Positions 4,373 through 20,934 of a stretch of DNA of 24,520 nucleotides are shown here, piece after piece. How positions within the stretch are numbered: position 1 is the first letter of the stretch; each line of letters starts with the position of its first letter. The notes beneath the pieces were generated by a model. It had not been told where the DNA came from. It saw only the letters and a program-made list of their open reading frames with translations, and made no database searches. This stretch comes from a virus, in IMG/VR virus record IMGVR_UViG_3300009164_000344, positions 1 through 24,520 of that record. One strand, given 5' to 3'. The position numbers and the translations under genes are program-made.

Positions 4373-5566
4373 ATGTCTGGATTTTTTCAAGATCAATTAC
4401 TCAATGCTGCCGGAGTATTCTTCGGCAGCGATTTCCTGCGTGATTACACTCATGCAAGCAAAACATTTAGACCCAATGCATATCAAAATGCACCTAAGTT
4501 TAAATATCTTTTTCATGTATACTTTCAAATAAATTTAGGTACTGGTGCACCGGATAGCAATTATGGTTTATTAGTTAAGTCAGTAAAATTACCTAGTTTT
4601 AGTTTCGATACTACTACTCTTAATCAGTATAATAGAAAACGTCTGATACAAACAAAAATAAAATATGATCCAATAGATATTACATTCCATGATGATAACG
4701 GAACTGCAACTGGTACTCCAACTGCCGGTGGTAGTGCTAGAGCATTGTGGAAAGCATACTATAATTATTATTATTCAGATGGAAAAAACCCATCCGGTAT
4801 ACTAGCGGGCGCACCCGGTGCTACTCCTATATCAAGGTATAATCCTTCAAGCGGAACTATATCTAGTGCAGATTACAATGTACGTACACAATATACACCT
4901 AGTATAACAGGAAATGCTAATTGGGGATACAATGGCGATACACAAGATCCGTCGGGTCAAAAAATACCTTTCTTTAAAAATATAACTATCTTTGGTTTTA
5001 ACCAACACAATTTTACAGCATACACTTTAATTAATCCTATTATAACAAGATTTACCCATGATACATATGATTATGCACAAAGTACTGGTATCATGCAAAA
5101 TCAAATGACATTAGATTATGAAACTGTGGTTTATAATGAGGGTGCAATAAGTGGAAAAGCACCGGGTGATATTGTTACTGGATTTGGTTCAGAAACTAAC
5201 TATGATAGAACACTAAGTCCCATAGCAAGACCGGGTTCCCAACAAAATATATTGGGTCAGGGAGGCTTAATGAGTGGTATAGGTGGCGCAGTTAACAGTC
5301 TAAAGGATGGAAATATTTTGGGTGCAATTCAAGCAGCAGGTACATCATACAATACATTTAAAAATACTAATCCGTTAAATATAGCAAAATCAGAAGTGTT
5401 GTCAGGAATAACTAATGCGGTTCAAGGTACTCCTAATAGAAATTTAAATGTATCTACCCCTATATTCGGTGCTACTCCATCAACTACTGGTACTGCAAGT
5501 TCTCCACCTATTGCCCAAGCATCTCCCACTGTGCCAAATTCTAGAAACGCCGGCTTACAAATATAA
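4373..5566 (+). CDS. Second tail tube-like structural protein, probable baseplate/tube initiator (gp19/gp54-like)
   Basis: A 397-residue virion protein related to tube proteins. It has an initial tube-type segment (FKYLFHVYFQINLG), then LLVKSVKLPSFSFDTTTLNQ and a basic stretch leading to IKYDPIDITFHDDNGT, which is a recurring tube-fold signature. Later segments, FGFNQHNFTAYTLINPIITRF and MTLDYETVVYNEG, complete a second half of the barrel. Residues from about 270 onward form a Gly/Ser/Pro/Asn-rich low-complexity tail. T4 has two tube-like baseplate proteins, gp48 and gp54 (364 and 320 aa), which cap the baseplate and start tube growth. The size and the position after gp19 suggest the same job here, but which one is uncertain. 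No clear Shine-Dalgarno precedes the ATG, which is 22 bases after gp19, so coupled translation is likely. Confidence 0.7.
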   Translation: MSGFFQDQLLNAAGVFFGSDFLRDYTHASKTFRPNAYQNAPKFKYLFHVYFQINLGTGAPDSNYGLLVKSVKLPSFSFDTTTLNQYNRKRLIQTKIKYDPIDITFHDDNGTATGTPTAGGSARALWKAYYNYYYSDGKNPSGILAGAPGATPISRYNPSSGTISSADYNVRTQYTPSITGNANWGYNGDTQDPSGQKIPFFKNITIFGFNQHNFTAYTLINPIITRFTHDTYDYAQSTGIMQNQMTLDYETVVYNEGAISGKAPGDIVTGFGSETNYDRTLSPIARPGSQQNILGQGGLMSGIGGAVNSLKDGNILGAIQAAGTSYNTFKNTNPLNIAKSEVLSGITNAVQGTPNRNLNVSTPIFGATPSTTGTASSPPIAQASPTVPNSRNAGLQI

Positions 5567-5569
5567 ATA
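5562..5569 (+). promoter_or_regulatory. Perfect T4 late promoter octamer overlapping the preceding stop codon
   Basis: TATAAATA is an exact match to the T4 late consensus. It overlaps the end of the preceding gene (stop at 5564-5566). Exactly 5 bases separate it from the ATG at 5575, so the T4 late start position falls on the A of the start codon and would give a leaderless mRNA. Confidence 0.6.
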
Positions 5570-5574
5570 CAATT

Positions 5575-5934
5575 ATGGCAACTATATTAGATCATCGTAC
5601 ATCATTGGATCAAACCGTTAGAATTTTTGATTCGTTTTACGCCTTTAACTTAATTATCAATGCAAGTGAATATGATGTAGTACGTTCGTTTTTTGTTTCA
5701 GTATGTGAAACAGTTAACATTGCTGAAAATTTTACCGCTGTGTTTTTTAGGATTTCACAGGAATTACAAATACCTGCTACTGACTTACTAGCATTAATAA
5801 AGGGTAAGAAAAAGATGGAGATAAATCAAACATTAGCCTATTATCTGAATAGTTTTAAAAGCAAAACTTCATTATATGGTATAGCTATAAAACCAAAATC
5901 AAATCAACCGGTGGCACGTAACATAGTGCAATAA
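5575..5934 (+). CDS. Conserved-looking phage protein of unknown function (119 aa)
   Basis: I do not recognise a characterised function. The protein looks globular and largely helical. It starts with TSLDQTVRIFDSFYAFNLIINASEYD, followed by VRSFFVSVCETVNIAENFTAVFFRISQELQ, a Lys-rich turn (IKGKKKMEIN) and YYLNSFKSKTSLYG near the C-terminus. It resembles, from memory, an uncharacterised structural-module protein found next to tube genes in T4-like phages of aquatic bacteria. Its place between the second tube-like gene and the gp4-like gene suggests a baseplate, chaperone or head-completion role, but that is only inference. There is no Shine-Dalgarno. A perfect late promoter box ends 5 bases before the ATG. 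The start is otherwise supported by the 8-base gap from the upstream stop. Confidence 0.75.
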   Translation: MATILDHRTSLDQTVRIFDSFYAFNLIINASEYDVVRSFFVSVCETVNIAENFTAVFFRISQELQIPATDLLALIKGKKKMEINQTLAYYLNSFKSKTSLYGIAIKPKSNQPVARNIVQ

Positions 5935-5936
5935 TT

Positions 5937-6374
5937 ATGGTTAATTATGCACAGGGTATATACACTCCCAAAAACCCACAAAAATATGTAGGTAAACATA
6001 ATCCTAAATATAGATCGGGATGGGAATTAACATTTATGACCTTCTGTGATACACACAAGAATGTAACACATTGGGCTAGTGAATCAATGTCAATTCCATA
6101 TAGAAGTCCGTTAGACGGTAAAATTCACAGGTACATTCCAGATTTCTTTGTAGTGTATCAAAACAAATATGGAAAACAAATTGCCGAAGTTGTAGAGATT
6201 AAACCCAAGAAACAAAGTTTAATAGAAAGTCGCACAGCAAGCGCAAGAGATAGAGCAGTAGTTGCTATCAATCATGCTAAATGGGCTGCTGCAAATGCAT
6301 ATTGCAAAAGTCAAGGATTTTCATTTAGAGTTATTACAGAAGATGATCTTTTCCGTAACGGAACTAGAAAATAA
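5937..6374 (+). CDS. gp4: Head completion protein, T4 gp4-like (TnsA/PD-(D/E)XK-type nuclease fold)
   Basis: In T4, gp4 (also called gp50/65) acts on the filled head before tail joining; phages lacking it make unstable heads. This 145-residue protein matches the family in length and in its core motifs: YRSGWE (Glu30), a Trp-Ala-Ser-Glu strand (WASESMSIPY), YIPDF (Asp69) and VVEIKPK (Glu87, Lys89). Glu, Asp and Glu-x-Lys are the residues of a PD-(D/E)XK metal-dependent nuclease as in TnsA, so trimming of packaged DNA ends is a reasonable inference. The start overlaps no gene but lies only 2 bases after the upstream stop, with no clear Shine-Dalgarno, which suggests translational coupling. It converges with the desaturase gene, leaving 1 base between the two stop codons. 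Confidence 0.85.
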   Translation: MVNYAQGIYTPKNPQKYVGKHNPKYRSGWELTFMTFCDTHKNVTHWASESMSIPYRSPLDGKIHRYIPDFFVVYQNKYGKQIAEVVEIKPKKQSLIESRTASARDRAVVAINHAKWAAANAYCKSQGFSFRVITEDDLFRNGTRK

Positions 6375-6375
6375 A

Positions 6376-7167
6376 TTATTTAGATTTTGCTAATCTAAAC
6401 AGCATCAAAGTATTAATTACATACTTGCCCGGATCAAATTGCCACCACTCTGAGCCAATACGATAATCTCCCGGTCTTGCATGATGATTGTTATGCCAAC
6501 CTTCACCAAATGTCAAAAATGACCACCACCATACATTGTGACTAGAATCTTTTGTATCTACTGGACGATTACCAAATATAGGATCATGGTCAATCCAGTT
6601 ACTAAAACGTGAAGCAATTGTATTAAAGAATACTGGAATTAAAAACAAGTAAACTGCTACAACTGGATTGATTAAAAATAATCCTATTAGTATTGATAGT
6701 ATCATTAGAATATAGTATTCATGCATAAAGCGTTGAACCGGATCATTGATAATATCTTTGACTAGCCATTTGTTAAATGGTCCACCATAGTTACCTACAA
6801 TAGCACCGACTGGTCCTAACGTTACCGGACTATGAGGATCACCTTCTTTGTCGGCATAGATATGATGCGCCCGATGGACGAATACCCACCCTACACTACT
6901 ACCAGTACAACCAAGATTACCAAAAAAACTAAACAAACGTTCTAACGGTTTAACTAATTTATAAGAACGATGTGTTAGTAATCTATGAAAAGTTACAGTA
7001 ATACCTAAACATGTGATTAAAAAATATCCAAATAAAGACAACAACCAATACTCAGCACCAATTGGATATAATACAGCCCATGAAAATGCAATCAATGCTA
7101 GTACCTGCATTGCAATAAAAAACCATTCTCTTGGATACCATAACGATTTTATATTTTTAGCTAACAT
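6376..7167 (-). CDS. Membrane fatty acid desaturase (acyl-CoA/acyl-lipid delta-9 type)
   Basis: A di-iron desaturase that would put a cis double bond into fatty acyl chains in the host membrane. All three histidine boxes are intact: HRLLTH (61-66), HRAHH (98-102) and HNNHH (225-229, in GEGWHNNHH). The first and third are set in typical contexts (GITVTFHRLLTH, FLTFGEGWHNNHH). Hydrophobic segments at about 16-35, 41-60 and 153-185 give the usual two-hairpin membrane topology. At 263 aa it is about the length of bacterial and cyanobacterial delta-9 enzymes. The ATG at 7167 is preferred over a TTG at 7200 because AGGA (7177-7174, - strand) lies 6 bases before it. It stands alone on the - strand between virion genes, with a late-type promoter. 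It is an auxiliary metabolic gene of likely bacterial origin; its exact regiospecificity cannot be read from sequence. Confidence 0.93.
   Translation of the reverse strand: MLAKNIKSLWYPREWFFIAMQVLALIAFSWAVLYPIGAEYWLLSLFGYFLITCLGITVTFHRLLTHRSYKLVKPLERLFSFFGNLGCTGSSVGWVFVHRAHHIYADKEGDPHSPVTLGPVGAIVGNYGGPFNKWLVKDIINDPVQRFMHEYYILMILSILIGLFLINPVVAVYLFLIPVFFNTIASRFSNWIDHDPIFGNRPVDTKDSSHNVWWWSFLTFGEGWHNNHHARPGDYRIGSEWWQFDPGKYVINTLMLFRLAKSK
6379..6399. terminator. Possible weak bidirectional terminator between convergent genes
   Basis: An 8-bp perfect inverted repeat, TTTAGATT (6379-6386) and AATCTAAA (6392-6399), with a 5-base loop lies at the junction of the convergent gp4-like and desaturase genes, inside the last codons of the latter. 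The stem is AT-rich. On the - strand it is followed by TAATTTATTTT, a partial U tract; on the + strand there is none. It may work weakly for the desaturase transcript. Confidence 0.35.
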
Positions 7168-7190
7168 ATTAATTCCTACTTTTATATGTG

Positions 7191-7198
7191 TATTTATC
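7191..7198 (-). promoter_or_regulatory. Late-type promoter for the desaturase, reading leftward
   Basis: On the - strand, GATAAATA (7198 down to 7191) is one mismatch from the T4 late consensus. Predicted start is near 7185, giving an 18-base leader with AGGA before the ATG at 7167. A weaker sigma70-like pair also exists further upstream on the same strand: TTGACC (7230-7225), 17 bases, TAAAAA (7207-7202). Confidence 0.55.
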
Positions 7199-7237
7199 AA
7201 CTTTTTAGCAACTTAAATTATAAAGGTCAATATACTA

Positions 7238-7244
7238 CTAAATA
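7238..7244 (+). promoter_or_regulatory. Late-type promoter (CTAAATA) directly before the gp16-like gene
   Basis: CTAAATA is followed by 5 bases (CTTTT) and then the ATG at 7250. By T4 late spacing the transcript would begin on the A of ATG. No Shine-Dalgarno is present. The same arrangement occurs before the genes at 5575 and 20671. Confidence 0.55.
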
Positions 7245-7249
7245 CTTTT

Positions 7250-7726
7250 ATGACCAAAAAACTAGAAGAACTTTTTGAACTCGACCAAAATGAAATAGAT
7301 GGCTTAGCAAAGCCTACTCCGGATAATGCACAGGAAATCACTACTGAAGCATTAGATACTCTATCAAAAATAGAACAAGCATTACCTCAAGTACGTGGAT
7401 TAGACGCTGCGGACAATGAGATGGATGGGCTAGCTGAAATGGCACAATCTAGCTATAAAGATTTGATGGACCTAGGGATGCAAGTTGATAGCAGATATGC
7501 TAGCGAGATATTCAATGTTGCTGGAACTATGCTTGGCCATGCTATTACTGCAAAGACTGCTAAACTAAATAAGAAGTTAAAGATGATTGATTTGCAGTTG
7601 AAAAAAGCACAATTAGATCAAAAAGAAGCAAACAGAGATAAAGAAATTGAAGCGACTCCTATAGGTGAAGGTAGAGAACTTGACCGTAATGAGTTGCTTA
7701 AGATGTTGGCATCAAAATCCGACTAA
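7250..7726 (+). CDS. gp16: Probable small terminase subunit, T4 gp16-like
   Basis: In T4, gp16 forms a ring that recognises concatemeric DNA and stimulates the gp17 packaging ATPase/nuclease. This 158-residue protein is close to T4 gp16 (164 aa). It has an acidic N-terminal third (ELFELDQNEIDGLAKP and a similar NEMDGLAEM), and then a helical core of about residues 75-135. That core includes SRYASEIFNVAGTMLGHAITA followed by a long charged, probably coiled-coil helix (KLNKKLKMIDLQLKKAQLDQ). A tyrosine plus 'evf/eif' followed by a Gly-containing helix and a Lys/Gln coil is the arrangement of the T4-type small terminase. In T4 it lies before genes 17 and 18; here it is some 3.6 kb downstream of gene 18 behind the desaturase. 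Family assignment is by overall resemblance, without a decisive motif. Confidence 0.65.
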   Translation: MTKKLEELFELDQNEIDGLAKPTPDNAQEITTEALDTLSKIEQALPQVRGLDAADNEMDGLAEMAQSSYKDLMDLGMQVDSRYASEIFNVAGTMLGHAITAKTAKLNKKLKMIDLQLKKAQLDQKEANRDKEIEATPIGEGRELDRNELLKMLASKSD

Positions 7727-7729
7727 AAA

Positions 7730-7737
7730 GATAAATA
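7730..7737 (+). promoter_or_regulatory. Late-type promoter before the 209-aa gene
   Basis: GATAAATA lies just after the gp16-like stop. Predicted start is about 7743, leaving a 14-base leader that contains AGGAA (7746-7750) before the ATG at 7757. Confidence 0.6.
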
Positions 7738-7756
7738 ATATATACAGGAATAAAAA

Positions 7757-8386
7757 ATGCGAAGCCTCAAACAATATATCATGGAAAGTATACATACTTA
7801 CAATTATACTATCAAAATTGCCGGCACCATTGACAAAAACTTTTTAGATATGTTTAAATACAATCTAAACAAATTTGACCCAGTGGAAATCAGTGAACCA
7901 AAAAGCACGCCAATACAGAAATCACCATACGGTTTCCCTAATTTAGAGAACGAAAGTGTAACATTAATCAAAGTTGAATTTAGATATCCAGCAACAGAAC
8001 CAATGATACAACAACTTGCTCAATTATGTGGTTACAATGTTAACATGGTGCGTATGGTATCTACTGACTTTGATGAAAGCATTGACAGCGAGATGGTTGG
8101 ATATGAGAATGAGATGAAAGATAGCCCATTGCTTGATAAAGAAGAAATGGGTGAGCAACCAAATGCCAAAGAAGCAAGCAAAGCGTATGGTGATTCATAT
8201 TTACAATCAATCAAAGACCAATCAAAAGATTCTAAGATTGATATTCCATATGCAGGAACAAGAACAAAAGATTCGTTTGACCCGTTCAAGCCATATCTAG
8301 ATGATAAGAAAATGGGCGATAAGAGTCCAATGAGTACTATAAAGATGCCACCAAAGCCAAAGACTGGCGCCGCATATAACCGTTAA
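7757..8386 (+). CDS. Putative prohead core/internal head protein (209 aa)
   Basis: Function is not established. The N-terminus MRSLKQYIMES carries I-M-E followed by Ser, which fits the T4 prohead protease (gp21) cleavage rule (Leu/Ile-x-Glu). Short N-terminal leaders of this type are common on T4-like head-core and internal proteins. A compact alpha/beta-looking region follows: TYNYTIKIAGTIDKNFLDMF, then VTLIKVEFRYPATEPMIQQLAQLCGYN, to about residue 105. The second half is hydrophilic, acidic then Lys/Pro rich (KEASKAYGDSYLQSIKDQ, SPMSTIKMPPKPKTG) and probably disordered. It lies between the gp16-like gene and another protein with the same kind of cleavage site, 10 bases before the latter. 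AGGAA precedes the ATG by 6 bases. A head-internal role is inference from leader and neighbours. Confidence 0.7.
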   Translation: MRSLKQYIMESIHTYNYTIKIAGTIDKNFLDMFKYNLNKFDPVEISEPKSTPIQKSPYGFPNLENESVTLIKVEFRYPATEPMIQQLAQLCGYNVNMVRMVSTDFDESIDSEMVGYENEMKDSPLLDKEEMGEQPNAKEASKAYGDSYLQSIKDQSKDSKIDIPYAGTRTKDSFDPFKPYLDDKKMGDKSPMSTIKMPPKPKTGAAYNR

Positions 8387-8396
8387 GGAAAACAAA

Positions 8397-11300
8397 ATGG
8401 ATTTCAGAGATATATTAAAATCATTCGACAACCTATCTGAAGGTGAAAAAACTACTACTGATAAAGGTACAGTTCACAAATCAGGCCCGGGTGGATATGG
8501 AAATAAACACGGATCAGAAGATGTTACCGATCAGTATGGTAAACCAGTTGGTCGTATGAGTTTAGGTAAACTTGGTGCTAAAAATGAACCAAAGCGTGGC
8601 AAAGGTCGTCCACCAAATCCTGACAAAGCAAAAGAGTATGATAGCACAGGATTAAACAAGGCAATGGGAATAGGTAAACCACCTAAGCCAACTGGCAAGC
8701 CTAGTGTTAAACATAGTCTTAAAGAATACTTTGATCAAATGGATGAAGCATTAAGCGAAGCAGGTTTAGCAGTACAACCAATGCCAGCTACACCGCAACA
8801 AAAGCAACAACAAGCAGTAGCAACAAAGCCATCTTTTATGATTAAAGATCCTGCTAATCCTAACATGCCGGCTATTACTACACAAGATCCAGCAGTAGTT
8901 CAAGCAGCTAAGAATGGTACAATGTCAATGCAAAAGCCGGGTGCAGCACCTACTACTCAACCAGGAGCTACACCGGCAGCAGGTGCGGGTTCACAAGTTG
9001 CTCCAATGGAAGAAGATGATAAAAATTGGATTAAAGGTGCTATTAAGCAGCCAGGTGCATTCACTAAGAAAGCATCATCACATGGCATGACACCAAAAGA
9101 ATTTGCTAATAAAGTATTAGCACATAAGGCAGATTATCCAGCCAAGACAGAAAAGCAAGCAACTCTTGCTAAAACATTAGGCAAGATGCACAATGAAGCT
9201 GATATGGAAGAAGGTTGGAAAGGTGCTGCAATTGGCGGAGCATTAGGCTCATTAGCAGGACCGGCCGGTGCATTAGCTGGTGCAGCAGCAGGACATTTTG
9301 TAGGTAATGATATGGCAAAATGGGGCAAAGATAAACAAGTTGCTAAAACAGCACAAGCACAAAAGCCAGCACAGTCAGCTAGAACAGGACCAGTCATTAA
9401 TGATTATAGAAAAAACAAAGAAGTTGCAGAAGCAGAAGCGCCGCAACACTTTGCACAATCAAGCCCACTAAGCACTGCTAACCGCGGTGTATTAGAAGGC
9501 AAGAAGGGTGTTAATCCTTTCGCCAAGAAAGATACTAATAAAAAGCCAGACGCTGATAAAGATGGAGTTCCTGATTGGGCTGACAAGAAGCCTGGCAAAG
9601 ATGATAACGAAGGCAAAAAGAAAGGTGCAGCACCTAAGAAAGGTGTAAATCCTTTTGCTAAAAAAGATGACAAAAAGAAAGTGAAAGAAGGTATGGACAG
9701 TAAACTACAAGCAGCGAGACTTAGAGGTAAGAGTCATGCTCTTTCCAAAGAAGCATACAATTGTCACTACGATGACATGGAAGAATCACGTTGCTACCAT
9801 GAAGGATTCAAAGAAGGTCTAGATGAGTGCTATGGTCAGATGCCAATATTAGGTCGTACAAGAGTTGGTGAAGTAGACGAGGCTTATGTGGCTAATCCAT
9901 CTAATCAATATGATCATTATGGTGATGAGGCTTCTCCAGAAGAACACAAAGCATACCAAGATGAATTGAATTTGTATAAGACTCCGGGTGCTCATCCTGC
10001 TCTAGCATCAATAGGCATGGGCCGCGCTCAAGATATGAATAGTCGTTTAATTCAAACATTACAAAAAAGAGGAAAGCCTGTTCAACAAGCATTTGGTGAA
10101 AACGAAGTAGGCACAATGGCTAGCTATGGCGCACATGATGAGATGGACGAAGCGTATGTTGGTCACTTAGATATAAGAGGTGATAGGGGAGGCGATCAAG
10201 CTGACGCCGACGAATATAGAAAAGAATTTCATTTATATAATCCACGTATTGCTGATAAGCAACGTAATAGTGATTTAACAATTGGCGGATTCACCCGAGC
10301 GCAAGGTGTGGGACAACGTTTAGGTGATGTAAATCGCCGCAACAAAGATGCTGCTGCAAAAGCAAATACGCTTGGTGGTCGTGTTAAATCAGCATTTGGC
10401 ATGGACGAAGGTGAAATAGATGAGATGGATAAGACTTCTTACATGAAGCAACAGGCAATTAAAACACCAGGTGATACATTCAAGGCGTTTGGTCAGACAA
10501 TGAGTGATAAGGATGTACTAGATGAATTAGCCTTTGAAGCATTAGACAAGCAATTGAATGCTATTCTTGAAGGTAAAGAAGTATCAGAAGGCATGACTGT
10601 TTCTATCAGTAAAGGTCAACAAGGATCTCCTGATTCAGTAAGTGTATCAGCACAAGACGGTGAAGCTGACCAATTGTTATCTATCATCAAATCAGCAGGC
10701 ATGGGCTTGTTTGGTGGTGATGAACAAAATGGATATGGTGCACCACAAGGCTCAGCAGGTGCTCACGGCGGTATCAGTGTAGTTGATGACCATGATGGTA
10801 TGATGGCATTGATGAAGAAATTGTCCGGTGGTGGTGAGATGCAAAGTGACAGTGATTACGAAAGTGAAGAAGGTCACGGCGAAGAAGGTCACGGCGAAGA
10901 AGCATGCGGAACATGCGGTCAAGCACCATGTGGTTGTGAGCAAGAACAAGTAGATGAAGTAGAATCAGAAGATCAAATGGAATTTGAAGTTGCTGAAAAT
11001 GCCCCAGATTCTGGCGCTGATAATACTAACGCTGATGTTGCAGGTAATGCAGCAGCTAATAGCGCATTGGCAACAGCGGATGCAGGTGCTGATGAAGAAG
11101 AAGGTGAAGTCTACTCAAGCCCAACTAACGAAGCTGAAGATGAAACAGGTGAAGAAGCTGGTAAGAAAAAAGAAGAAACAGTGGCAGAATCTTTTGCTAA
11201 TCTTTACAAGAAATTAGCATTCTTATCAGAAGAATCAATTGATAAAGAAGAAGATGAAAAGGCTGAGAAAGCTGGAAAGAAAGTTGCCAAAGATATCGAA

Positions 11301-11645: not shown

Positions 11646-11659
11646 AAGAATCGTAATTT

Positions 11660-11690
11660 AAAATACCCGGCTTATGTCGGGTATTTTTTT
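11660..11690 (+). terminator. Rho-independent terminator after the 1082-aa gene
   Basis: A 10-bp perfect stem, AAAATACCCG (11660-11669) with CGGGTATTTT (11678-11687), has an 8-base loop and runs into a tract of seven Ts ending at 11690. It lies 14 bases past the stop codon and ends the putative head-core block before the fibre block. Confidence 0.92.
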
Positions 11691-11712
11691 GGGTCTCCGT
11701 TTCTTAAATAAC

Positions 11713-11731
11713 GATAAATACATTATAAATA
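11713..11731 (+). promoter_or_regulatory. Two tandem late-type promoter boxes before the fibre gene
   Basis: GATAAATA (11713-11720) and a perfect TATAAATA (11724-11731) lie between the terminator and the ATG at 11744. The first would start near 11726 and keep the AGGT ribosome-binding candidate at 11731-11734. The second would start near 11737, leaving only 7 leader bases and excluding it. This is the start of the adsorption/lysis block. Confidence 0.65.
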
Positions 11732-11743
11732 GGTAACATAAAC

Positions 11744-14700
11744 ATGAGCCAGCAAAATATTGACTTTGGTAGTTTTCCCGATGATCCGTCAGCGGATGCA
11801 ATAAGAACCGCATTTAATAAAGTACAGAATAACTTTGACCAGTTGTTTGGTGCTAATGCAAATACTACCGTAACTTCTATTAATAGAACCCCGGGTGCAG
11901 GTATAACTGTTAACTATCCTACAGGTAATGTAGTTGTTTCTGCAAATATTGCATGTGTACAAGTTTCTACTAGTTCATTAAGTATTGGTCGAGGTAGTAA
12001 TGGTTTCAGTAATGCATTAATTACCTCTTCATCTCAAACGTTAGTAGTTGATATAGATCCTGATCAGGTATATTCTAATTATTTTGCAGATGTTAATAAT
12101 GGTTTATCAGTGTTTAATGGTAATTTATCTAGTAATTCAAACTATCAATCTAATATAACACGGGTAGGAACGTTAGTATCATTGATTGTGTCAGGTAATG
12201 CAAACTTCAGCGGTTCTAATACATATATTAGTAGTGTGGCTAATCTTAGAATTCCTGGTGGTAGTGCTGGGTATGGATTGGTAACAGATGGAACAGGAAA
12301 TTTATCTTGGTCTGCTGCTGTTACTGGTAATAGTACTCCCGGTGGATTACCTACATATGTACAGTTTCAGGGCACCGATGCAAATACAGGTAAATTTGCC
12401 GGTAATGCAGGATTTACCTTTCTTGCTGGAAATGGATTACTTAGCGCACCTTCACTAGCAATAGCACAAGATGCAACTGCTGCTAATTTTATAGGACCAT
12501 TAACTAATGGTAATAGTAATATTACTATTACAAGTAATTCTGACATTACATTCACTTCTAATAGTAATAGCACAATGATAATAACTGCGACTGGTGCTAA
12601 TATTACCGGTACAGCAAACATAAGCGGAAATGCTAATGTAGGTAATATTGGTGCTACTCAGGCAATTATTACTACTAGTGCTAATATCCCTATTATTCAA
12701 CAAGGTAATAGTAACATTACTATTACAAACGGTGGTAATATTACAGTATATGCTAACGGTAATTCAACGGCTAGATTTACTATTTCAAATGACGGTATAA
12801 CTACTAATGGTGCGTCAAATGTAAGTGGTGCATTAACCGTTGGTGGTAATATATCAACATATGGTAGTAACGGTAAACTACAAGCAAATAATATAACTGC
12901 AACTGGTGCTGCTACTGGTAATGCCAACGTATCAACAGTTACAGGTGATTTGGGTTTAAGAACAATTGCTAGTACATATACAGATAATTCAGCAGCAGCA
13001 AGTGCTACAATAGCAAATGCAGCAATACATGCAATTGCACAACCAACATTGGCGGCAGCAAACGCAACAGTTACATTCACTAATGCTGCTGCTCTTTATA
13101 TTGCAAATGCTCCTGCTGCTGGGGCAAATGCTACAATAACTAATCCATATTCATTGTTTGTAGCAAATGGTAGTACATATTTTGGCGGCGCCAATATGTA
13201 TGTTGCTGGTAACTTGATTGTTGCAGGTAATGCAACGTATTATAACATTACTTCTTTTGTTGTTCAAGATCCTATCATTTCATTAGGTGGAGGACCAAAT
13301 GGAAATGCATTAACTTCAAATGACGGAAAAGATAGAGGTGCTGCATTACAATATTTTACCACAACACCTGTAACTGCATTCATGGGATGGGATAATAGCA
13401 ATGGCGAATTTGCATTTGGTAGTAATGTAAGTATTGCTAGTGAAGTAGTAACATTTACTACTTTGGGAAATGTTCGTGGTTTAACTTGGGCAGGTAATGT
13501 AGAGGGTGCATTTGCTAACTTTACTGGTAATATCACAACAACAGGCAACGCTGATTTGGGTAATACTGCAACTGCTAACTATTTTGTTGGAAGATTATAC
13601 GGAACTGCTAATGTAGCGACATTAGCTAATACAGTAACAACTAATGCTCAACCAAATATAACAAGTGTCGGTACATTAACCTCACTAGCTGTAACAGCTA
13701 ATACTACATCAAATAATTTCATTGGTAAATTGGCTAATGGTAATAGTAATATCAGTATTACCGCAGATAGTAATATTGCATTCAATGCTGTGGGAGTAGG
13801 TATTGCTAATATCACAGGTACCGGTATCAACGTAGCCGGTACCGGTAACTTCACTGGTAATTTAGCAGCAGCAGCACATTACGGTCCATTGGCAAATGGC
13901 AATAGTAATGTTCAGATAGCATCAGCAAATGGTAGTATAACATTAACTGCCGTTGGTAATACTATTATGACAATTACAGGTACTGGTGCTAATATTGCAG
14001 GTACTGCTAACGTCACTGGTAATTTATCAACCGGTAACATAAATGGTGGTAATTTAGTAACAGCCAATTTTATATCAGGTGATGGTTATTTATTAAGTAA
14101 TTTAACTATTTCGGCAGGTAGTTCCATAGTTAGTGGTAACTCTAATGTATCAGTAAGTGCAAATGGTAATGTAACAATGTATGTTGCAGGAAATACAACA
14201 GCTAGGTTAACTGCTACTAGTACAGGAATAGTTGCTAATGGTACAATGAGTGTATCTGGTAATTTAAGTGCAGGTAATATAAATGGTGCTGCACAGATAT
14301 TAGCAACTGCAAATATTACCGCACCTCAATTAATATCTAATGTTGCATCCGGTACTGCTCCGTTTGTTGTAACAAGTACAACACAAGTTGCTAACTTGTC
14401 AGTAGCAACCGCTGGTACTGCAACTAGTGCTACTACAGCAGGTACAGTAACAACAGCAGCACAACCTAATATAACAAGCGTTGGCACATTAAGTTCATTG
14501 GGAGTATCAGGCGCAGTAACAGCAAGTACACTAGTTTCTAACGTAGCGACAGGTACTGCACCATTGACAGTAACAAGTACAACACAAGTTGCTAACTTGT
14601 CAGTAGCAACTGCTGGTACTGCTACTAGTGCAACTACAGCAGGTACAGTAACAACTAATGCTCAACCAAACATAACAAGTGTCGGCACATTAACAAGTCT

Positions 14701-15598
14701 TGCTGTCACGGGTAATATAACAAACGGCAATCTTACCGGTGGTAATTTAGTTAGTGCTAGTTACTTAACTGGTACATTAACAACAGCAGCACAACCTAAT
14801 ATCACTAGTCTTGGTACTCTGCTTAATACATCAATGGGTTCAAGTAATTCGTTGTCAGGTGGTAATTTAGTTAGTGCTAGTTACTTAACTGGTACATTAA
14901 CAACAGCAGCACAACCAAACATTACTAGTACCGGTACATTAACTGGATTGGGTGTTAATGGTACTATAACAGCAGTAAACATTACTGCAAATTCAGGTGT
15001 GTTTTCAGGCAACGGTGCTAGTCTAACTAGTTTACCGGGAGCGAATGTAACCGGTACTGTACCTAACGCAAACGTTTCTATTTACGGAGCAGTAACTCAA
15101 CAGACAACAGGTACATACTATCCAGTAATGGTTAATGGAAATACAACAGCAAATTATGCTCACGCAGTAACACCAGGCATATCATTTAATATAGCCACTA
15201 ATACAGTATCTGCTACAGCATTTGCCGGTAACTTAACAGCAACTGGTACTGTACAAGCAGCAAACGTAATATCTACTGCATTTATCCAACGTGCAGTTAC
15301 AACAGGTGTTTCTGCTAATGGTTCTACTCAAGCACAAGCAACAGCATTAACTACTGAAATTAATATAGTAAGTGCAGTAGGTTCTGGCACTGGTGTTAGA
15401 TTGCCGGCTGCAATTGCAGGCACAGTAGTATACATTACTAATTCTACTGCAAATAGTTTAGTAGTGTATCCTCAAACTAGTGGACAAATTAATAACCTTG
15501 GAGCTAATATTGGATTCAGTCAAGGTGCTAATTCAACTTTACAATTCATGGCACCTACTACAACGCAATGGTATACAATTGGCGCTACATGGGCATAA
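11744..15598 (+). CDS. Large repetitive tail fibre-like structural protein (1284 aa)
   Basis: Probable fibre or fibre-like adsorption protein. The first 40 residues (DPSADAIRTAFNKVQNNFDQLFG) look like a virion-attachment helix, and a similar FRxxFxxI/V helix starts the 630-aa fibre downstream. The body is a long Gly/Asn/Thr/Ser/Ala-rich beta-structured repeat region, almost without charged or aromatic residues, as in trimeric beta-helical fibres. Recurring units are N-G-N-S-N-(I/V)-x-I (near nt 12506, 13736, 13897) and QPNITSxGTLxxL (near 13648, 14461, 14661, 14791, 14911). Around residues 500-590 is a more normal domain (FVVQDPIISLGGGPNGN, YFTTTPVTAFMGWDNSNGEF). The last 100 residues form a globular tip shared with the 630-aa protein. 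Which fibre it is (long, short or accessory) cannot be told, and no chaperone gene is adjacent. Confidence 0.85.
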   Translation: MSQQNIDFGSFPDDPSADAIRTAFNKVQNNFDQLFGANANTTVTSINRTPGAGITVNYPTGNVVVSANIACVQVSTSSLSIGRGSNGFSNALITSSSQTLVVDIDPDQVYSNYFADVNNGLSVFNGNLSSNSNYQSNITRVGTLVSLIVSGNANFSGSNTYISSVANLRIPGGSAGYGLVTDGTGNLSWSAAVTGNSTPGGLPTYVQFQGTDANTGKFAGNAGFTFLAGNGLLSAPSLAIAQDATAANFIGPLTNGNSNITITSNSDITFTSNSNSTMIITATGANITGTANISGNANVGNIGATQAIITTSANIPIIQQGNSNITITNGGNITVYANGNSTARFTISNDGITTNGASNVSGALTVGGNISTYGSNGKLQANNITATGAATGNANVSTVTGDLGLRTIASTYTDNSAAASATIANAAIHAIAQPTLAAANATVTFTNAAALYIANAPAAGANATITNPYSLFVANGSTYFGGANMYVAGNLIVAGNATYYNITSFVVQDPIISLGGGPNGNALTSNDGKDRGAALQYFTTTPVTAFMGWDNSNGEFAFGSNVSIASEVVTFTTLGNVRGLTWAGNVEGAFANFTGNITTTGNADLGNTATANYFVGRLYGTANVATLANTVTTNAQPNITSVGTLTSLAVTANTTSNNFIGKLANGNSNISITADSNIAFNAVGVGIANITGTGINVAGTGNFTGNLAAAAHYGPLANGNSNVQIASANGSITLTAVGNTIMTITGTGANIAGTANVTGNLSTGNINGGNLVTANFISGDGYLLSNLTISAGSSIVSGNSNVSVSANGNVTMYVAGNTTARLTATSTGIVANGTMSVSGNLSAGNINGAAQILATANITAPQLISNVASGTAPFVVTSTTQVANLSVATAGTATSATTAGTVTTAAQPNITSVGTLSSLGVSGAVTASTLVSNVATGTAPLTVTSTTQVANLSVATAGTATSATTAGTVTTNAQPNITSVGTLTSLAVTGNITNGNLTGGNLVSASYLTGTLTTAAQPNITSLGTLLNTSMGSSNSLSGGNLVSASYLTGTLTTAAQPNITSTGTLTGLGVNGTITAVNITANSGVFSGNGASLTSLPGANVTGTVPNANVSIYGAVTQQTTGTYYPVMVNGNTTANYAHAVTPGISFNIATNTVSATAFAGNLTATGTVQAANVISTAFIQRAVTTGVSANGSTQAQATALTTEINIVSAVGSGTGVRLPAAIAGTVVYITNSTANSLVVYPQTSGQINNLGANIGFSQGANSTLQFMAPTTTQWYTIGATWA
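14369..14610 (+). repeat. About 201-bp fibre repeat with 41-bp identical core
   Basis: Bases 14369-14409 and 14570-14610 are identical and exactly 201 bases apart (67 codons, in frame). Similarity extends beyond on both sides at the protein level: GTAP(F/L)xVTSTTQVANLSVATAGTATS and then the QPNITS unit. It marks an in-frame duplication within the fibre shaft. Confidence 0.85.
14738..14916 (+). repeat. 59-bp perfect direct repeat, 120-bp period
   Basis: Bases 14738-14796 and 14858-14916 are identical over 59 bp at a distance of exactly 120 bp (40 codons). They encode GGNLVSASYLTGTLTTAAQP twice. Identity at synonymous positions shows the duplication is recent or homogenised by recombination. 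Confidence 0.9.
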
Positions 15599-15609
15599 CA
15601 GGAGACAAG

Positions 15610-16230
15610 ATGGTAACACTAGATTTATTAACACATATGTGTCCCAAAACAAAATCAAGTATTCTTGAGGGATACTTAGAACCACTCAATACTGTAGCAG
15701 AATATTATGAGATGAATGTTAATCCAGCAAGATTGGCAGGCTTTCTAGCACAAACAGCACATGAGTCCGGTGGGTTTACTGCCATCAAAGAAAATCTAAA
15801 CTATAGTGCTAAGGGACTACGTGGTACATTTGGTAAATATTTTCCCAATGATGAAATAGCTAATCAATATGCGAAAAAGCCAGAGCGTATTGCTAATCGT
15901 GTATATGCTAATCGTATGAGCAATGGACCAGAAGAATCAGGTGATGGTTATCGCTTCTGTGGCCGTGGATTAATTCAATTGACCGGTCGTGCCAACTATA
16001 CTAAATTTGCAGCAGACTTGGGCATGAGTTTAGAAGATACCGTAGCTTACTTAGAAACACCAAATGGTGCTGTAGCAAGTGCAGGATGGTTTTGGGATAA
16101 CAACAAACTAAATCAATATTGTGATAGTGGAGATTTTGTAACATTAACTAAACGTATCAATGGTGGTACTATTGGATTAGAAGATAGAAAGCATCACTAC
16201 GAATTAGCGATGCATTATTTAACAACATAA
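15610..16230 (+). CDS. Endolysin, glycoside hydrolase family 19 (chitinase/lysozyme-like)
   Basis: Cuts the glycan strands of peptidoglycan for host lysis. The GH19 core is clear. AHESGGF holds the likely acid Glu52, and KENLNYS gives the probable second Glu61. The YRFCGRGLIQLTGRANY stretch (about 122-139) is a family signature, and a later SAGWFWDNNKLNQYCDSGDF region leads to LTKRINGGTIGLEDR. At 206 residues it is a single-domain enzyme without a signal peptide or cell-wall-binding domain, so it needs a holin, none of which is seen nearby. The ATG at 15610 is preferred to an upstream in-frame ATG at 15568, which lies inside the fibre gene, because AGGAG (15600-15604) sits 5 bases before it. 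The next gene starts one base after its stop, so the two are coupled. Confidence 0.92.
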   Translation: MVTLDLLTHMCPKTKSSILEGYLEPLNTVAEYYEMNVNPARLAGFLAQTAHESGGFTAIKENLNYSAKGLRGTFGKYFPNDEIANQYAKKPERIANRVYANRMSNGPEESGDGYRFCGRGLIQLTGRANYTKFAADLGMSLEDTVAYLETPNGAVASAGWFWDNNKLNQYCDSGDFVTLTKRINGGTIGLEDRKHHYELAMHYLTT

Positions 16231-16231
16231 T

Positions 16232-18712
16232 ATGGCACAACCAATTTGGAATACAGCAGCAGGATCTATTGGATCATACCCATACGGGTATGATATACTA
16301 TATATATTATCTGCATCCCCTGTTTCACCGTCAACTAGTATTAGATATAGTGTCTTGGCAGGAAGTTTGCCTTCCGGTATAACATTAAATATTAATAATG
16401 GCGCTTTATCAGGAAAACCAACAATAGTTACAAAAGATACAGTTACAACTTTTACAATAAGAGCAACCGATAATTTAAATAATATACGTGATAGAACATT
16501 TAGCATGACAGTAACTGGTACTGCTATTCCACAATTTACTACTCCGTCGGGAGTGTTATTAAGTACACAAGATAGTATTTGGACACAACTTCAAATTAAC
16601 TATTCTAATCCAGACAGCAACAACAAAGTAATAGTTGAATTGCAACAAGGTGTATTGCCCCCCGGCTTAGAAATATCATCTAGCGGCCTAATTCAGGGAT
16701 ATCCAACTCCACCTTCAACTTTTGTTACATTAGCACAAGTTACAACAGTGGGAGTAACAACCGATTCATCAACTAATTACATTTATGTTATAAATGCCAG
16801 TGGCATAATTCCTGGAAGAGAAGTGTTGTTTACAAATACAATAGGTAGTTTAAATTCTGGACAAACATATTATGTAAAAGCGGTTGATAATATATTAAAT
16901 GCATTTACTGTAAGTGTAACTCAAAATGGTAGCACATTCCCGTTAACCGATGCCACTGGAGCAATGAATGTAACGTTGCCCCCTATTAATACAGGTCAAC
17001 CTACTATTAGAACATATAATTTTGTATTAAGATTATTAAGCGCATTAGGTGGTAATACTGCTTCATATTCAATAACTGTCATTAATCAAAATACTCCTTC
17101 TAGTTTGGGTGGTCCAGGTAATCCTCCTAATTCTAGAAATCCTACTTTATTGAATACAAGACCATTAACAATTTCACCTACTGACGCTGATCCATACTAT
17201 GGTTATTATTTGTTGCCACCTGCACCACCTAGCCAAAATGTCCTATTAGGAACATTTTTAAGTGATAATTATTTTGCATTTAAATTAATAGGTTATGATT
17301 TTGACGGCAATGATATAACATATATTTGTTCAGGTCTTCCGCCTAATGTAACATATAATTCTACTACTGGATGGATAACCGGTACACCAATATTATCTTT
17401 ACCAGGCATTAATACATACAGATTTACTGCACAAGTAGTTAAAAAATCTAATCCCGGAATAGGATCACCAGTTTTCAATCTAACATTAAACTTAAGTTTA
17501 GATGTTACAGGTAAAATTGAGTGGTTAACATTAGATAATTTAGGTACAATATATAATGGAACAATTAGTACGTTGAAAGTTACAGCTATATCTGATGTGC
17601 CGCTGGTATATAGAATTACAGACGGTGCATTGCCTCCTAATTTAGAGTTATTGTCAAATGGAGAAATAACTGGAATAGTAGCAAGCCAACCAACTGATAC
17701 TTTCTTAGATGTTGGTACTAACACTGATTTTAGTTTTACTGTACAAGCATATTCTAGTGATTACTCAATTGTTGAATCTAGCAAAACATTTAACTTAACT
17801 GTATATCAAAATTATGGTCAACCAACTGATATACTTTATATACAAGCAACCCCTAGTGTAGCAGATAGACAAATACTACAAACATTATTAGATAATGATT
17901 CATTGATACCAACAGAGTTGTTGTATAGATCAAATGACGTTTATTTTGGGAAAGCAACTAGTGTAGTATATGAACATGCGTATGGAATATATGCTAGTGA
18001 AATTCAAGACTATCTCGCAGCAGTAACTGAAAATCATTATTGGAGAAACATCACATTAGGTGAATTAAAAACTGCTGTAGCAAAAAATGAAGCCGGTGAA
18101 ATAATATATGAGGTTGTGTACAGTGAGATTATAGATAACTTAGTAAACCCGCAAGGTGTAAGTATTGAAAGTAGTATATATTGGCCAAGACCTATAGATT
18201 TGTTTCTTGGTCCTTGGTATACTAGTGTGACAGATATCTATACTAGTTATATAGAATTATTAGATCAACAATATTATACTAGTTTGACTCCGGGATATGC
18301 ACGTATATTATATCCAAATAGTTTATATAATATGCGTAATCGTGTAGCTGATGTTCTAGGTCAAGTTTTTAATAGTACATTACTACCACAATGGATGACG
18401 AGTCAACAAGCAAATGGTAGTACATTGGGTTATACTCAGGCTTGGGTAATTTGCTATACAAAACCAGGATGTGCTGATCTTATTAAAGCAAATATAGAAG
18501 CAAATTGGCAATATACATTAAATCAAATCAATTTTGAAATTGATAGATTTACCGTTAATAAGAGTATTACTTATAATTGGAATAATAAAATTGCCCCCGC
18601 AGCTTGGAATGAATTACCTAGTGCAACCCCTGTACCCGATCCATTAAATAGTAAGGATTTTTATGTATTATTCCCGAGACAAACTATTTTACCGAATAAA
18701 ACTCAATACTAA
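16232..18712 (+). CDS. Virion structural protein with four putative Ig-like (He_PIG-type) repeats (826 aa)
   Basis: Likely fibre or surface decoration protein. The N-terminal two thirds hold at least four copies of the putative-Ig (He_PIG) signature 'LPxGLxx...G.IxGxP': LPSGITLNINNGALSGKPT (about 46-64), LPPGLEISSSGLIQGYP (about 143-159), LPPNVTYNSTTGWITGTP (about 369-386) and LPPNLELLSNGEITG (about 465-480). The C-terminal third (about 535-826) is different: mixed charge and aromatic, with YWRNITLGELKTAVAKNEAG, YPNSLYNMRNRVADVLGQV and WVICYTKPG. It resembles an uncharacterised domain that I recall from structural proteins of T4-like phages of aquatic bacteria. No Shine-Dalgarno is visible and it begins 1 base after the endolysin, so translation is probably coupled. 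Binding to a surface glycan is the usual guess for such Ig domains in phages, not shown here. Confidence 0.82.
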   Translation: MAQPIWNTAAGSIGSYPYGYDILYILSASPVSPSTSIRYSVLAGSLPSGITLNINNGALSGKPTIVTKDTVTTFTIRATDNLNNIRDRTFSMTVTGTAIPQFTTPSGVLLSTQDSIWTQLQINYSNPDSNNKVIVELQQGVLPPGLEISSSGLIQGYPTPPSTFVTLAQVTTVGVTTDSSTNYIYVINASGIIPGREVLFTNTIGSLNSGQTYYVKAVDNILNAFTVSVTQNGSTFPLTDATGAMNVTLPPINTGQPTIRTYNFVLRLLSALGGNTASYSITVINQNTPSSLGGPGNPPNSRNPTLLNTRPLTISPTDADPYYGYYLLPPAPPSQNVLLGTFLSDNYFAFKLIGYDFDGNDITYICSGLPPNVTYNSTTGWITGTPILSLPGINTYRFTAQVVKKSNPGIGSPVFNLTLNLSLDVTGKIEWLTLDNLGTIYNGTISTLKVTAISDVPLVYRITDGALPPNLELLSNGEITGIVASQPTDTFLDVGTNTDFSFTVQAYSSDYSIVESSKTFNLTVYQNYGQPTDILYIQATPSVADRQILQTLLDNDSLIPTELLYRSNDVYFGKATSVVYEHAYGIYASEIQDYLAAVTENHYWRNITLGELKTAVAKNEAGEIIYEVVYSEIIDNLVNPQGVSIESSIYWPRPIDLFLGPWYTSVTDIYTSYIELLDQQYYTSLTPGYARILYPNSLYNMRNRVADVLGQVFNSTLLPQWMTSQQANGSTLGYTQAWVICYTKPGCADLIKANIEANWQYTLNQINFEIDRFTVNKSITYNWNNKIAPAAWNELPSATPVPDPLNSKDFYVLFPRQTILPNKTQY

Positions 18713-18715
18713 ATA
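18709..18715 (+). promoter_or_regulatory. Late-type promoter (CTAAATA) before the 630-aa fibre gene
   Basis: CTAAATA overlaps the stop of the preceding gene. Predicted start is 18721, giving a 20-base leader with GGACGGA as ribosome-binding site before the ATG at 18741. Confidence 0.5.
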
Positions 18716-18740
18716 CATATAACGGACGGAATATAAAACA

Positions 18741-20633
18741 ATGAGTACCATCAATACAAACCCAATTAATGTAAATTATCCAGTGCCCGGTGTTAATAAT
18801 AACAGCCAAGGGTTCAGGGATAACTTTGCCTCAATTGTAACTAATCTAAACACAGCAGCAACTGAAATTACCGACTTACAAAACAAAGTAGTAGTTAAAC
18901 AAGCATTAACTGGAACTACAATTAACAATGATATGGCTAATACGCTTATCAGTAATGCTAGTACTAGAAGTTTTAGAGCAACTACTTATAATTTAGGTAA
19001 TGCAATGGCTGGAACTGTTTTCATCAATGTCGCATTAGCTGATGTTCATTATGGAGCACTTGCTGGTAATACAACATTTAATTTTAGTAGTTGGGCACCT
19101 GCAGGAACACAAAGTAATGTTCAATTGAATATTAATGTTCCGGCTAATGTAGCAGCTACTGCCAATTCTGTAATTACTTTCTCAGGTAATGTAGTTCTTG
19201 CTGATGCTAATAATGGTGGTTCTAGTACACTTGAAAACTTCTCTAATGTGGGCGGTGTAGTTAGTGTCACAGTACCATATGGTGTAAATCAACTTAATTA
19301 CTTAATCAGTACTACTGATTGCGGAAATACACTATACATAGCACCAATCAATAGACCTAGAGTAGCAACTGCAATACAACAACGTAGTCCTATTCCAACT
19401 GGATTTAAGGGTGATGTTGCAGGTGATGTAGCTGTAGATGCAACTTATATATATGTTGCTACTGGTACATATGATTCCAACATCGCAAACACAACACAGA
19501 TAGTACAAACATATGCATCAGGAAATATAATTCGTTGTAATTCTTGGCCTAGTAATGGTGGTGGATTTATTGCTAATGCACCAATTATATTCAATGGTAC
19601 TTCATTTGGTGGTATAGTTGCCGGAACAACTTATTACATTAAAACAGTTAGTAACCCTAACATAACAATATCATCTACTGGATTTGATGGTACACCTGGC
19701 AATGCCGTGGCGCTTAGTGATGCTACTGGCAGTATGGCTGCTGATAGTTATAATGGTAATTCAATATGGAGACGTATTGATTTAGCAACTGCTACCGGTA
19801 ATGATATAGTTACTGGTAACTTAACAGTTAACTATAGTGCTAATATTGGTACAACCTTAAATGTAACCGGAAACATCACTGGTGCTAATTTAAATGGACC
19901 ACTTGCGAATGGTACAAGTAATGTAAGTATACCGACAGTTAACTCAACTGTAAACACAGTAGTGGCCGGTACTACAAGAATTGCTGCTACTACATCAGGA
20001 GCAACTATTACCGGTACATTAGGAGTATCTAGCACAATTACCGGAACTACATTAGTATCTAACATTGCTACTGGCACTGCTCCGTTAACGATTACAAGTA
20101 CAACCGTGGTTCCTAATCTGTATGTAGCACGTGCCAATGTTAGTGATTATGATACAGTAACGTTAGTTAATACTGGAACTTATTATCCTCAATTAGTTAA
20201 CGCTACTTCAGGTAATTTAGCTACTGGGGCAAATGCAAACTTATCATTTAATGCTGCAACAGGTAACTTATCTACAACAATATTAAGTGCTACCGGTAAT
20301 GTAACTGCTGCGAATACAGTAACTTCAGCATATGCAATTGGATCTGTTGGTACTGCTATTGCAGCAGCAGGTACTGTACAGGCAAATGCTACTGCAATCA
20401 CCAAAGATAATAATATTGTATCTACTGTTGTAGTTGGAGCAGGTGTTGTATTACCAACCGCAGTTGCCGGTATGAGAATTTATATTAAAAATACTTCAGC
20501 AAATGCACTTTTGGTTTATCCTGCAACTAGTGGTATAATCAATTCATTAGCAGCAAATGCTGCTTATTCACAAGCTGCAAATGCAAGTGCGTTTTATATA
20601 TCTAGCAGCACCACTCAGTGGTATAGTTATTAA
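18741..20633 (+). CDS. Second tail fibre-like structural protein (630 aa), shares C-terminal domain with the 1284-aa fibre
   Basis: Probable fibre. The N-terminus (INVNYPVPGVNNNSQGFRDN, then helix FASIVTNLNTAATEITDLQN) is a likely particle-attachment region. Residues about 85-210 form a beta-rich domain (TTFNFSSWAPAGTQSNVQLN). A segment around 215-350 includes PRVATAIQQRSPIPTG and NSIWRRIDLA. From about 355 the sequence turns into the same Gly/Thr/Asn/Ala-rich shaft as the 1284-aa protein, including LANGTSNVSI and LVSNIATGTAPLTITSTT. The last 100 residues (about 532-630; NIVSTVVVGAGVVLPTAVAG, LLVYPATSGIINSLAANA, ending TTQWYSY) are homologous to the other fibre's tip. Sharing of both shaft and tip suggests duplication and domain exchange. 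A late-type promoter precedes it. Confidence 0.83.
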   Translation: MSTINTNPINVNYPVPGVNNNSQGFRDNFASIVTNLNTAATEITDLQNKVVVKQALTGTTINNDMANTLISNASTRSFRATTYNLGNAMAGTVFINVALADVHYGALAGNTTFNFSSWAPAGTQSNVQLNINVPANVAATANSVITFSGNVVLADANNGGSSTLENFSNVGGVVSVTVPYGVNQLNYLISTTDCGNTLYIAPINRPRVATAIQQRSPIPTGFKGDVAGDVAVDATYIYVATGTYDSNIANTTQIVQTYASGNIIRCNSWPSNGGGFIANAPIIFNGTSFGGIVAGTTYYIKTVSNPNITISSTGFDGTPGNAVALSDATGSMAADSYNGNSIWRRIDLATATGNDIVTGNLTVNYSANIGTTLNVTGNITGANLNGPLANGTSNVSIPTVNSTVNTVVAGTTRIAATTSGATITGTLGVSSTITGTTLVSNIATGTAPLTITSTTVVPNLYVARANVSDYDTVTLVNTGTYYPQLVNATSGNLATGANANLSFNAATGNLSTTILSATGNVTAANTVTSAYAIGSVGTAIAAAGTVQANATAITKDNNIVSTVVVGAGVVLPTAVAGMRIYIKNTSANALLVYPATSGIINSLAANAAYSQAANASAFYISSSTTQWYSY

Positions 20634-20658
20634 AATATAACGGGTATCTAATACCTAA

Positions 20659-20665
20659 CTAAATA
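20659..20665 (+). promoter_or_regulatory. Late-type promoter (CTAAATA) directly before the 87-aa gene
   Basis: CTAAATA, 5 bases (TTTGA), then ATG at 20671. The predicted +1 is the A of the start codon and no Shine-Dalgarno is present, as before 5575 and 7250. Confidence 0.5.
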
Positions 20666-20670
20666 TTTGA

Positions 20671-20934
20671 ATGGAACATCCATTCTTAAACAGAGCAGCA
20701 TTGTCCGAAAAGACGTTGGAAGAAATTCAAACGTCTTTGACCGACTTGATGAATAAACTTAATTTCGCCCACAGAACTGGAAACAGACCATTAATCAATC
20801 AACTTCACATGGTAATAGAAAGTTATCGTGCTGAAGCAAGTAAAAAACTAGACGAGGTAATGAAAAAACAAAATCTCCAAAGTCAAGTTTATATACAAAA
20901 AGAGGATCAAATTGGCAACAAAAATAGAACGTGA
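20671..20934 (+). CDS. Small helical protein of unknown function (87 aa)
   Basis: Not recognised as a characterised family. It is predicted to be almost wholly helical and probably coiled-coil: SEKTLEEIQTSLTDLMNKLNF, then AHRTGNRPLINQLHMVIESY and a Lys/Glu helix AEASKKLDEVMKKQNLQSQV, ending in a basic tail. It has the look of a conserved small protein of T4-like phages rather than a random reading frame, since the hydrophobic heptad spacing is regular and the helix-turn-helix hairpin is balanced. Its last 23 bases overlap the next gene, and the ribosome-binding site of that gene lies within it. The start is placed at the ATG 5 bases after CTAAATA. Confidence 0.7.
   Translation: MEHPFLNRAALSEKTLEEIQTSLTDLMNKLNFAHRTGNRPLINQLHMVIESYRAEASKKLDEVMKKQNLQSQVYIQKEDQIGNKNRT
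20901..20906 (+). promoter_or_regulatory. Shine-Dalgarno that fixes a TTG start
   Basis: AGAGGA lies 5 bases before TTG at 20912, inside the end of the preceding gene. It is the reason for choosing the TTG instead of the first internal ATG (20978), which lacks an upstream ribosome-binding site of this quality. Confidence 0.6.

Follow-up and report, generated by a model that had tools for sequence, protein, structure and literature searches.

Late-type promoter boxes at a distance predicted to give leaderless mRNAs in a metagenomic virus fragment and its T4-superfamily relatives

Introduction

Late transcription in phage T4 is a textbook case, and the mRNAs it yields are assumed to be leadered and translated from a Shine-Dalgarno (SD) sequence. 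Leaderless mRNAs are made by other phages: the lambda cI mRNA is leaderless, and Thermus phage P23-45 reportedly also produces leaderless mRNAs. We know of no case in which leaderlessness arises from T4-type late promoters or is conserved across a lineage as a split between individual genes, and our literature search did not turn up any leaderless late promoters described for T4-type phages. The T4 late box spans positions -13 to -6, and a CTAAATA variant has been described for phage Aeh1 (PMC2988020). Phage transcripts have been called "often leaderless" (PMC5312081). In bacterial leaderless genes, a TA-like -10 signal precedes the start codon by about 12 bp (PMC3160421), and a "-10 adjacent to ORF" leaderless arrangement has been described in Deinococcus-Thermus (PMC12340547).

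Here we describe a 24.5-kb metagenomic virus fragment (24,520 nucleotides; the whole stretch analyzed is referred to as the window) with late-type boxes at two kinds of distance from the start codon. We consider it highly probable (about 0.85), from spacing and conservation, that three of these boxes are T4-type late promoters set so that +1 would be the A of the start codon, which would give leaderless mRNAs, with other genes being leadered.

Materials and methods

Genes of five freshwater relatives were called with a home-made, hexamer-based gene caller that is blind to the box and takes the first ATG of each open reading frame. The relatives of the window include contigs of 230 to 264 kb. 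The distance (d) from TAAATA to the start codon was scored, and expected counts were taken from the background 45 to 119 nt upstream of gene starts. The contigs of the relatives are metagenomic and partly redundant, and orthologues from several genomes enter the counts; counts per family and per genome are therefore preferable to the pooled P value.

Results

The window contains three instances of the pattern TAAATA-N5-ATG (5564, 7239, and 20660), each at a gene start. The bases and the spacing are exactly as the first-pass annotation gave them, with open reading frames of 119, 158, and 87 codons, and no SD sequence was found at 5575, 7250, or 20671, in line with its description. The three boxes and the genes assigned to the predicted leaderless class are as follows.

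5562..5569, + strand: T4-type late box TATAAATA, followed by CAATT and ATG 5575; box-to-ATG distance 5 nt, full span 5562-5577
5575..5934, + strand: leaderless-class gene 1, 119 aa, no family match
7237..7244, + strand: late box ACTAAATA, variant with C at -12, followed by CTTTT and ATG 7250 (CTAAATA-CTTTT-ATG, 7238-7252)
7250..7726, + strand: leaderless-class gene 2, 158 aa, phrog_16202 (unknown function)
20658..20665, + strand: late box ACTAAATA, followed by TTTGA and ATG 20671 (CTAAATA-TTTGA-ATG, 20659-20673)
20671..20934, + strand: leaderless-class gene 3, 87 aa, no family match

The box at 5562..5569 includes the TAA stop codon of the gene upstream, and the upstream neighbor of gene 7250 lies on the opposite strand. 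An arrangement identical to the 5562-5577 site is present in contig L105, where the encoded protein is 99% identical to the product of gene 5575. Within the window, the raw pattern was found 3 times against 1.21 expected, and at least 3 occurrences were seen in 13 of 100 shuffles. Significance from the window by itself was dismissed as too weak; the significance of the sites comes instead from the spacing peak in the relatives described below.

The same window holds late boxes farther from the start codon. The first-pass annotation had set these against the three sites above as boxes that are mostly accompanied by a ribosome-binding site, and the contrast is real: they lie 19 to 25 nt from the ATG, with an SD sequence in most cases.

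3688..3695, + strand: leadered late box GATAAATA, 22 nt to ATG 3718 (tail tube); SD AGGAG
7730..7737, + strand: leadered late box GATAAATA, 19 nt to ATG 7757; SD AGGA
11713..11720, + strand: leadered late box GATAAATA, 23 nt to ATG 11744 (long repetitive structural-type gene); AGGT
18708..18715, + strand: leadered late box ACTAAATA, 25 nt to ATG 18741; weak SD
7198-7191, - strand: leadered late box GATAAATA, 23 nt to ATG 7167, the likely desaturase start; SD AGGA

Three TAAATA boxes are packed into the 27 nt at 11705-11731 upstream of gene 11744, the extra boxes being at 11705 and 11726. The fatty acid desaturase gene (6376-7167, - strand), which has its own leadered late box, lies between a gp4-like gene and gene 7250, and its start is likely ATG 7167 rather than TTG 7200. 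The desaturase was uninformative as a guide to the host, since its best matches (30 to 41% identity) are spread over cyanobacteria, acidobacteria, and planctomycetes; the type of tmRNA was more useful.

The first-pass annotation proposed plotting the box-to-ATG distance across relatives. The resulting distribution is not flat and has the sharp peak that the annotation had named as support. It is bimodal in the freshwater relatives, with a sharp peak at 4 to 6 nt (mostly 5), a trough at 7 to 11 nt, and a broad rise of leadered genes at about 16 to 24 nt. The freshwater counts at d = 4, 5, and 6 were 24, 38, and 12, with the window included. Pooled over the five freshwater relatives, in which orthologues recur, 73 gene starts had d = 4 to 6 against 4.7 expected. 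Genome by genome, observed and expected numbers were 15 and 1.1, 17 and 1.3, 16 and 0.8, 13 and 0.7, and 12 and 0.8, with P between 1e-11 and 1e-16. Three marine relatives gave 23 against 0.8, 10 against 0.4, and 21 against 1.8, with the peak at 5 and none at d = 4. No box at d = 4 to 6 was found in T4 (0 of 243 called gene starts), S-PM2, or Atu_ph07, and one was found in PA5oct; each of these four phages has 25 to 55 boxes at 12 to 35 nt.

The spacing is conserved gene by gene. For the 87-aa gene, the box lies 5 nt from the start in 19 of 21 fetched orthologues and 6 nt in the other 2, with differing sequence farther upstream. Among distinct upstream regions from orthologues of the 158-aa gene, 37 of 41 carry a box 4 to 7 nt from the ATG, including contigs with changed upstream sequence. 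The 119-aa gene is mixed, with a box at 4 to 6 nt in about 32 of 80 fetched orthologues (about 40%) and either no box or a leadered box in the rest. Leaderless-type members were found in 37 gene families. Orthologue pairs were of the leaderless type in both members in 72 cases, leaderless-type and leadered in 11, and leaderless-type and without a box in 10. Genes of the leaderless type include those for the terminase large subunit, baseplate wedge, virion structural proteins, and a homing endonuclease. No functional split between the leaderless and leadered classes was seen, beyond structural genes occurring in both.

A box at -13 to -6 places +1 at the sixth base after it, and at d = 5 the sixth base is the A of the ATG. 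In leadered promoters, a purine occupies base 6 at frequencies of 0.79 in T4, 0.78 in PA5oct, 0.81 in Atu_ph07, and 0.82 in the marine relatives, and a YR step is present at bases 5 and 6 in all of these. The placement of +1 at the A of the start codon, as given in the first-pass annotation, agrees with this predicted initiator, which falls exactly at the T4 +1 position. In marine genes with d = 5, base 5 is T in 46 of 46 genes versus 35% of genes without a box. The freshwater clade differs in having its initiator purine shifted to bases 5 and 7. Since the freshwater distances spread over 4 to 6 nt and the marine distances are sharply at 5 nt, the leaderless spacing tracks the inferred start in each clade. 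A pyrimidine at -1 was tried as a discriminator of leaderless and leadered genes in the freshwater clade and was rejected, as there was no difference (47 of 73 versus 100 of 148). A second class, found only in marine relatives (G009, G010, and G011; L530-L548 and L568-L584), has the box 8 nt from the ATG and is near-leaderless; base 6 is a purine in 23 of 23 of these genes, corresponding to predicted uniform leaders of 3 nt.

The window boxes match the T4 late octamer or a close variant of it and have no -35 element; in box-aligned profiles, the 12 nt preceding the box held nothing else that is strongly conserved. Virion genes (terminase large subunit, baseplate wedge, and structural families) lie downstream of the late boxes. 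A gp55-type late sigma factor is encoded by G001, G002, and G003; that of G001 matches phrog_12791 (4.5e-73) and phrog_234 (1.9e-21), and that of G003 is similar. The clamp loader gp44 is present. For gp45, PF09116 was silent, but it was silent in every control too, and phmmer with T4 gp45 found nothing.

Translation signals differ between the classes. An SD match of at least 4 nt precedes 1 of 73 leaderless-type genes, 86 of 148 genes (58%) with d = 12 to 30, and 44% of genes without a box; the absence in the first class is partly built in, because a box 5 nt from the ATG takes up the SD position. The start codon at d = 4 to 6 is ATG in 75 cases and GTG or TTG in none. Among freshwater orthologues, the synonymous share of change in codons 2 to 5 is at least as high as that in codons 6 to 13, and orthologues of gene 7250 show synonymous variation directly after the ATG. 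An alternative SD-preceded start within codons 4 to 31 was found in only 1 of the 73 leaderless-type genes. Because of the high synonymous share in the early codons and the near absence of such internal starts, the ATG is very likely the true start.

Promoters of the sigma70 type are also found at a leaderless distance. In such promoters, the -10 hexamer lies at -12 to -7. One example in the window precedes a gene with a DNA-polymerase-type match.

21518..21546, + strand: sigma70-type promoter with TTGATT at 21518-21523, a 17-nt spacer, and a TG-extended TATAAT at 21541-21546, 6 nt from ATG 21553
21553..22062, + strand: gene predicted to be leaderless from the sigma70 promoter geometry; DNA-polymerase-type match, phrog_11127

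In G001 and G002, the corresponding gene starts are preceded by the same sigma70 arrangement. Promoters with -35 and -10 elements peak at exactly d = 6, with 16 against 0.59 expected in the freshwater relatives and 26 against 0.61 in the marine relatives. No such peak was detected in T4, PA5oct, Atu_ph07, or S-PM2. A -10 element exactly 6 nt before the ATG again gives a predicted +1 at the A of the ATG. Two promoter types of unlike geometry therefore share the same predicted +1, which is a strong argument that the start site itself is held constant.

The marine relatives (L366-L414; G009, G010, and G011) show the trait strongly, and a soil-type relative (G012) shows it weakly (9 against 1.7). 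In a clamp-loader (gp44) tree, the freshwater clade groups with the marine representative G011 with 92 to 93% support. No close cultured relative of the window was found at the DNA level or for the 87-aa protein, and the nearest cultured phages are of the PA5oct type. In HTVC008M, a cultured SAR11 phage that the gp44 tree places with S-PM2 and T4, distant from the window lineage, 12 annotated starts lie at exactly d = 5 against 0.35 expected, so the leaderless-type starts coincide with the deposited ones; no clear sigma70 peak was seen in this phage. The 12 starts are at 6280, 7562, 11972, 18943, 19456, 31132, 49760, 75559, 75830, and 142360 and, on the minus strand, at 16007 and 18916. In Pelagibacter phage Mosig EXVC030M, 4 of 6 sites within one stretch examined coincide with annotated starts. 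As judged by box spacing, the trait is present in two distant lineages.

Permuted tmRNA genes are of a betaproteobacterial type in the freshwater relatives and of an alphaproteobacterial type in the marine relative (L257:1488-1860, L272:6948-7333, and L538:12238-12557). This suggests that the freshwater clade infects Betaproteobacteria and the marine clade Alphaproteobacteria, and since these host classes differ, host class alone does not explain the trait. Adjoining phage genes for IF3 and ribosomal protein bS21 are present in marine relatives (G009:181826-182360 and G011:275072-275656). Phage-encoded IF3 or bS21 was considered as a correlate of the trait and rejected; Atu_ph07 has IF3 and PA5oct has bS21, and both are without the trait.

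Discussion

In the reading that we favor, a gp55-type sigma factor on the host RNA polymerase would read the three window boxes. Transcription would start at the A of the ATG, as the geometry of the sites predicts, and ribosomes would initiate directly on the 5'-terminal AUG of the resulting leaderless mRNA. The same late system, acting on boxes about 16 to 25 nt upstream, would give short SD-containing leaders on other genes. As a counterpoint, read-through mRNA could also serve for translation of gene 5575 and others like it. The leaderless placement and the coexistence of two leader classes within a single type of late promoter, both put forward in the first-pass annotation, are strongly supported by the spacing peak, the conservation, the loss of SD sequences, the initiator, the exclusive use of ATG, and the divergent neighbors. 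Its further proposal of a switch late in infection through changed initiation factors is not supported.

That proposal, in which leaderless late genes gain an advantage as initiation factors change, is unlikely to be correct. It would fit the existence of two leader classes under one late box, conserved per gene, and the fact that IF3 is encoded by the marine relatives and Atu_ph07 and bS21 by several of these phages. However, the presence of these two factors is uncoupled from the trait in Atu_ph07 and PA5oct, and structural genes are found in both classes. In addition, sigma70 promoters, which are of the early type, share the leaderless placement; the design is therefore not specific to late genes, and this weakens the late-switch reading. 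By these comparisons, predicted leader class belongs to the individual gene in these lineages, and the predicted leaderless type extends beyond the late genes, which makes compact packing of promoter and gene, combined with leaderless-competent translation, likelier than a timed late switch.

Crowding of genes could by itself bring a box that overlaps the previous stop codon near the next ATG, with the genes translated by coupling from read-through transcripts. The stop codon within the box at 5562 is what this would predict, and same-strand gaps in the leaderless-type class are short (median of about 19 nt). Nevertheless, we regard crowding as quite improbable as the only cause. T4, S-PM2, PA5oct, and Atu_ph07 are also densely packed with genes and have no peak, and the class is kept per gene among orthologues despite changing upstream sequence. 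Moreover, about one-fourth of the class, including gene 7250, has a divergent upstream neighbor (25 to 27% of leaderless-type genes versus 5 to 6% of genes without a box); such an excess is what would be expected of genes headed by a promoter.

A/T-rich, unstructured upstream sequence helps initiation without an SD sequence, and the leaderless-type class lacks one, but it is very improbable that the hexamer is a translation enhancer within a longer mRNA rather than a leaderless promoter, as permuted A/T hexamers of the same composition gave no comparable peak (the overlapping ATAAAT excepted), the same box occurs upstream of SD-bearing leaders, base 6 after the box is a purine regardless of the distance to the ATG, sigma70 promoters with a -35 element and a 17-nt spacer give a parallel peak at 6 nt, and divergent upstream neighbors are common.

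The reading of the boxes as promoters for leaderless mRNAs implies that close and distant T4 relatives set the same promoter for an mRNA predicted to begin at the start codon, gene by gene and over large divergence. We tentatively propose that at least two distant T4-superfamily lineages may independently have made a conserved subset of promoters leaderless (gp55-type late promoters and, for the jumbo lineage, sigma70-type promoters as well), the leader class being retained per gene as a selected translational control, perhaps tuned to ribosomes altered by bS21 or IF3. Such phages would offer a natural comparison of one promoter type with and without a leader in a single infection, from which the benefit of leaderless translation outside the bacteria known for it could be learned. 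The question can be tested in cultured SAR11 phages, in which mapping of 5' ends is feasible since HTVC008M shows the trait. Box spacing also provides a practical rule for calling start codons.

Compared with known systems, the arrangement predicted here resembles lambda cI, P23-45, and other leaderless phage mRNAs in having no leader. It resembles bacterial leaderless genes in that a promoter element lies at a fixed short distance, the transcription start would coincide with the start codon, and an SD sequence is absent, and the logic of the inference is the same. In contrast to those genes, which use the main promoter of the host, the promoters here are phage gp55-type late and sigma70 promoters, with beta- or alphaproteobacterial hosts suggested by the tmRNA. 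HTVC008M and Mosig EXVC030M share the exact 5-nt distance between a late box and annotated starts. In pelagimyophages, late promoters have been described as unpredictable (PMC7029224), possibly because boxes at only 5 nt from the start codon were overlooked. The closest likeness is to the T4 late promoters, with which the window boxes share the octamer TATAAATA or its (A/G)CTAAATA variant, the lack of a -35 element, the location upstream of virion genes, a gp55-type sigma factor (in relatives), and an initiator purine at base 6 after the box. In contrast, the recognizable late promoters of T4 give leaders, mostly with an SD sequence, whereas here a large share lie at a leaderless distance.
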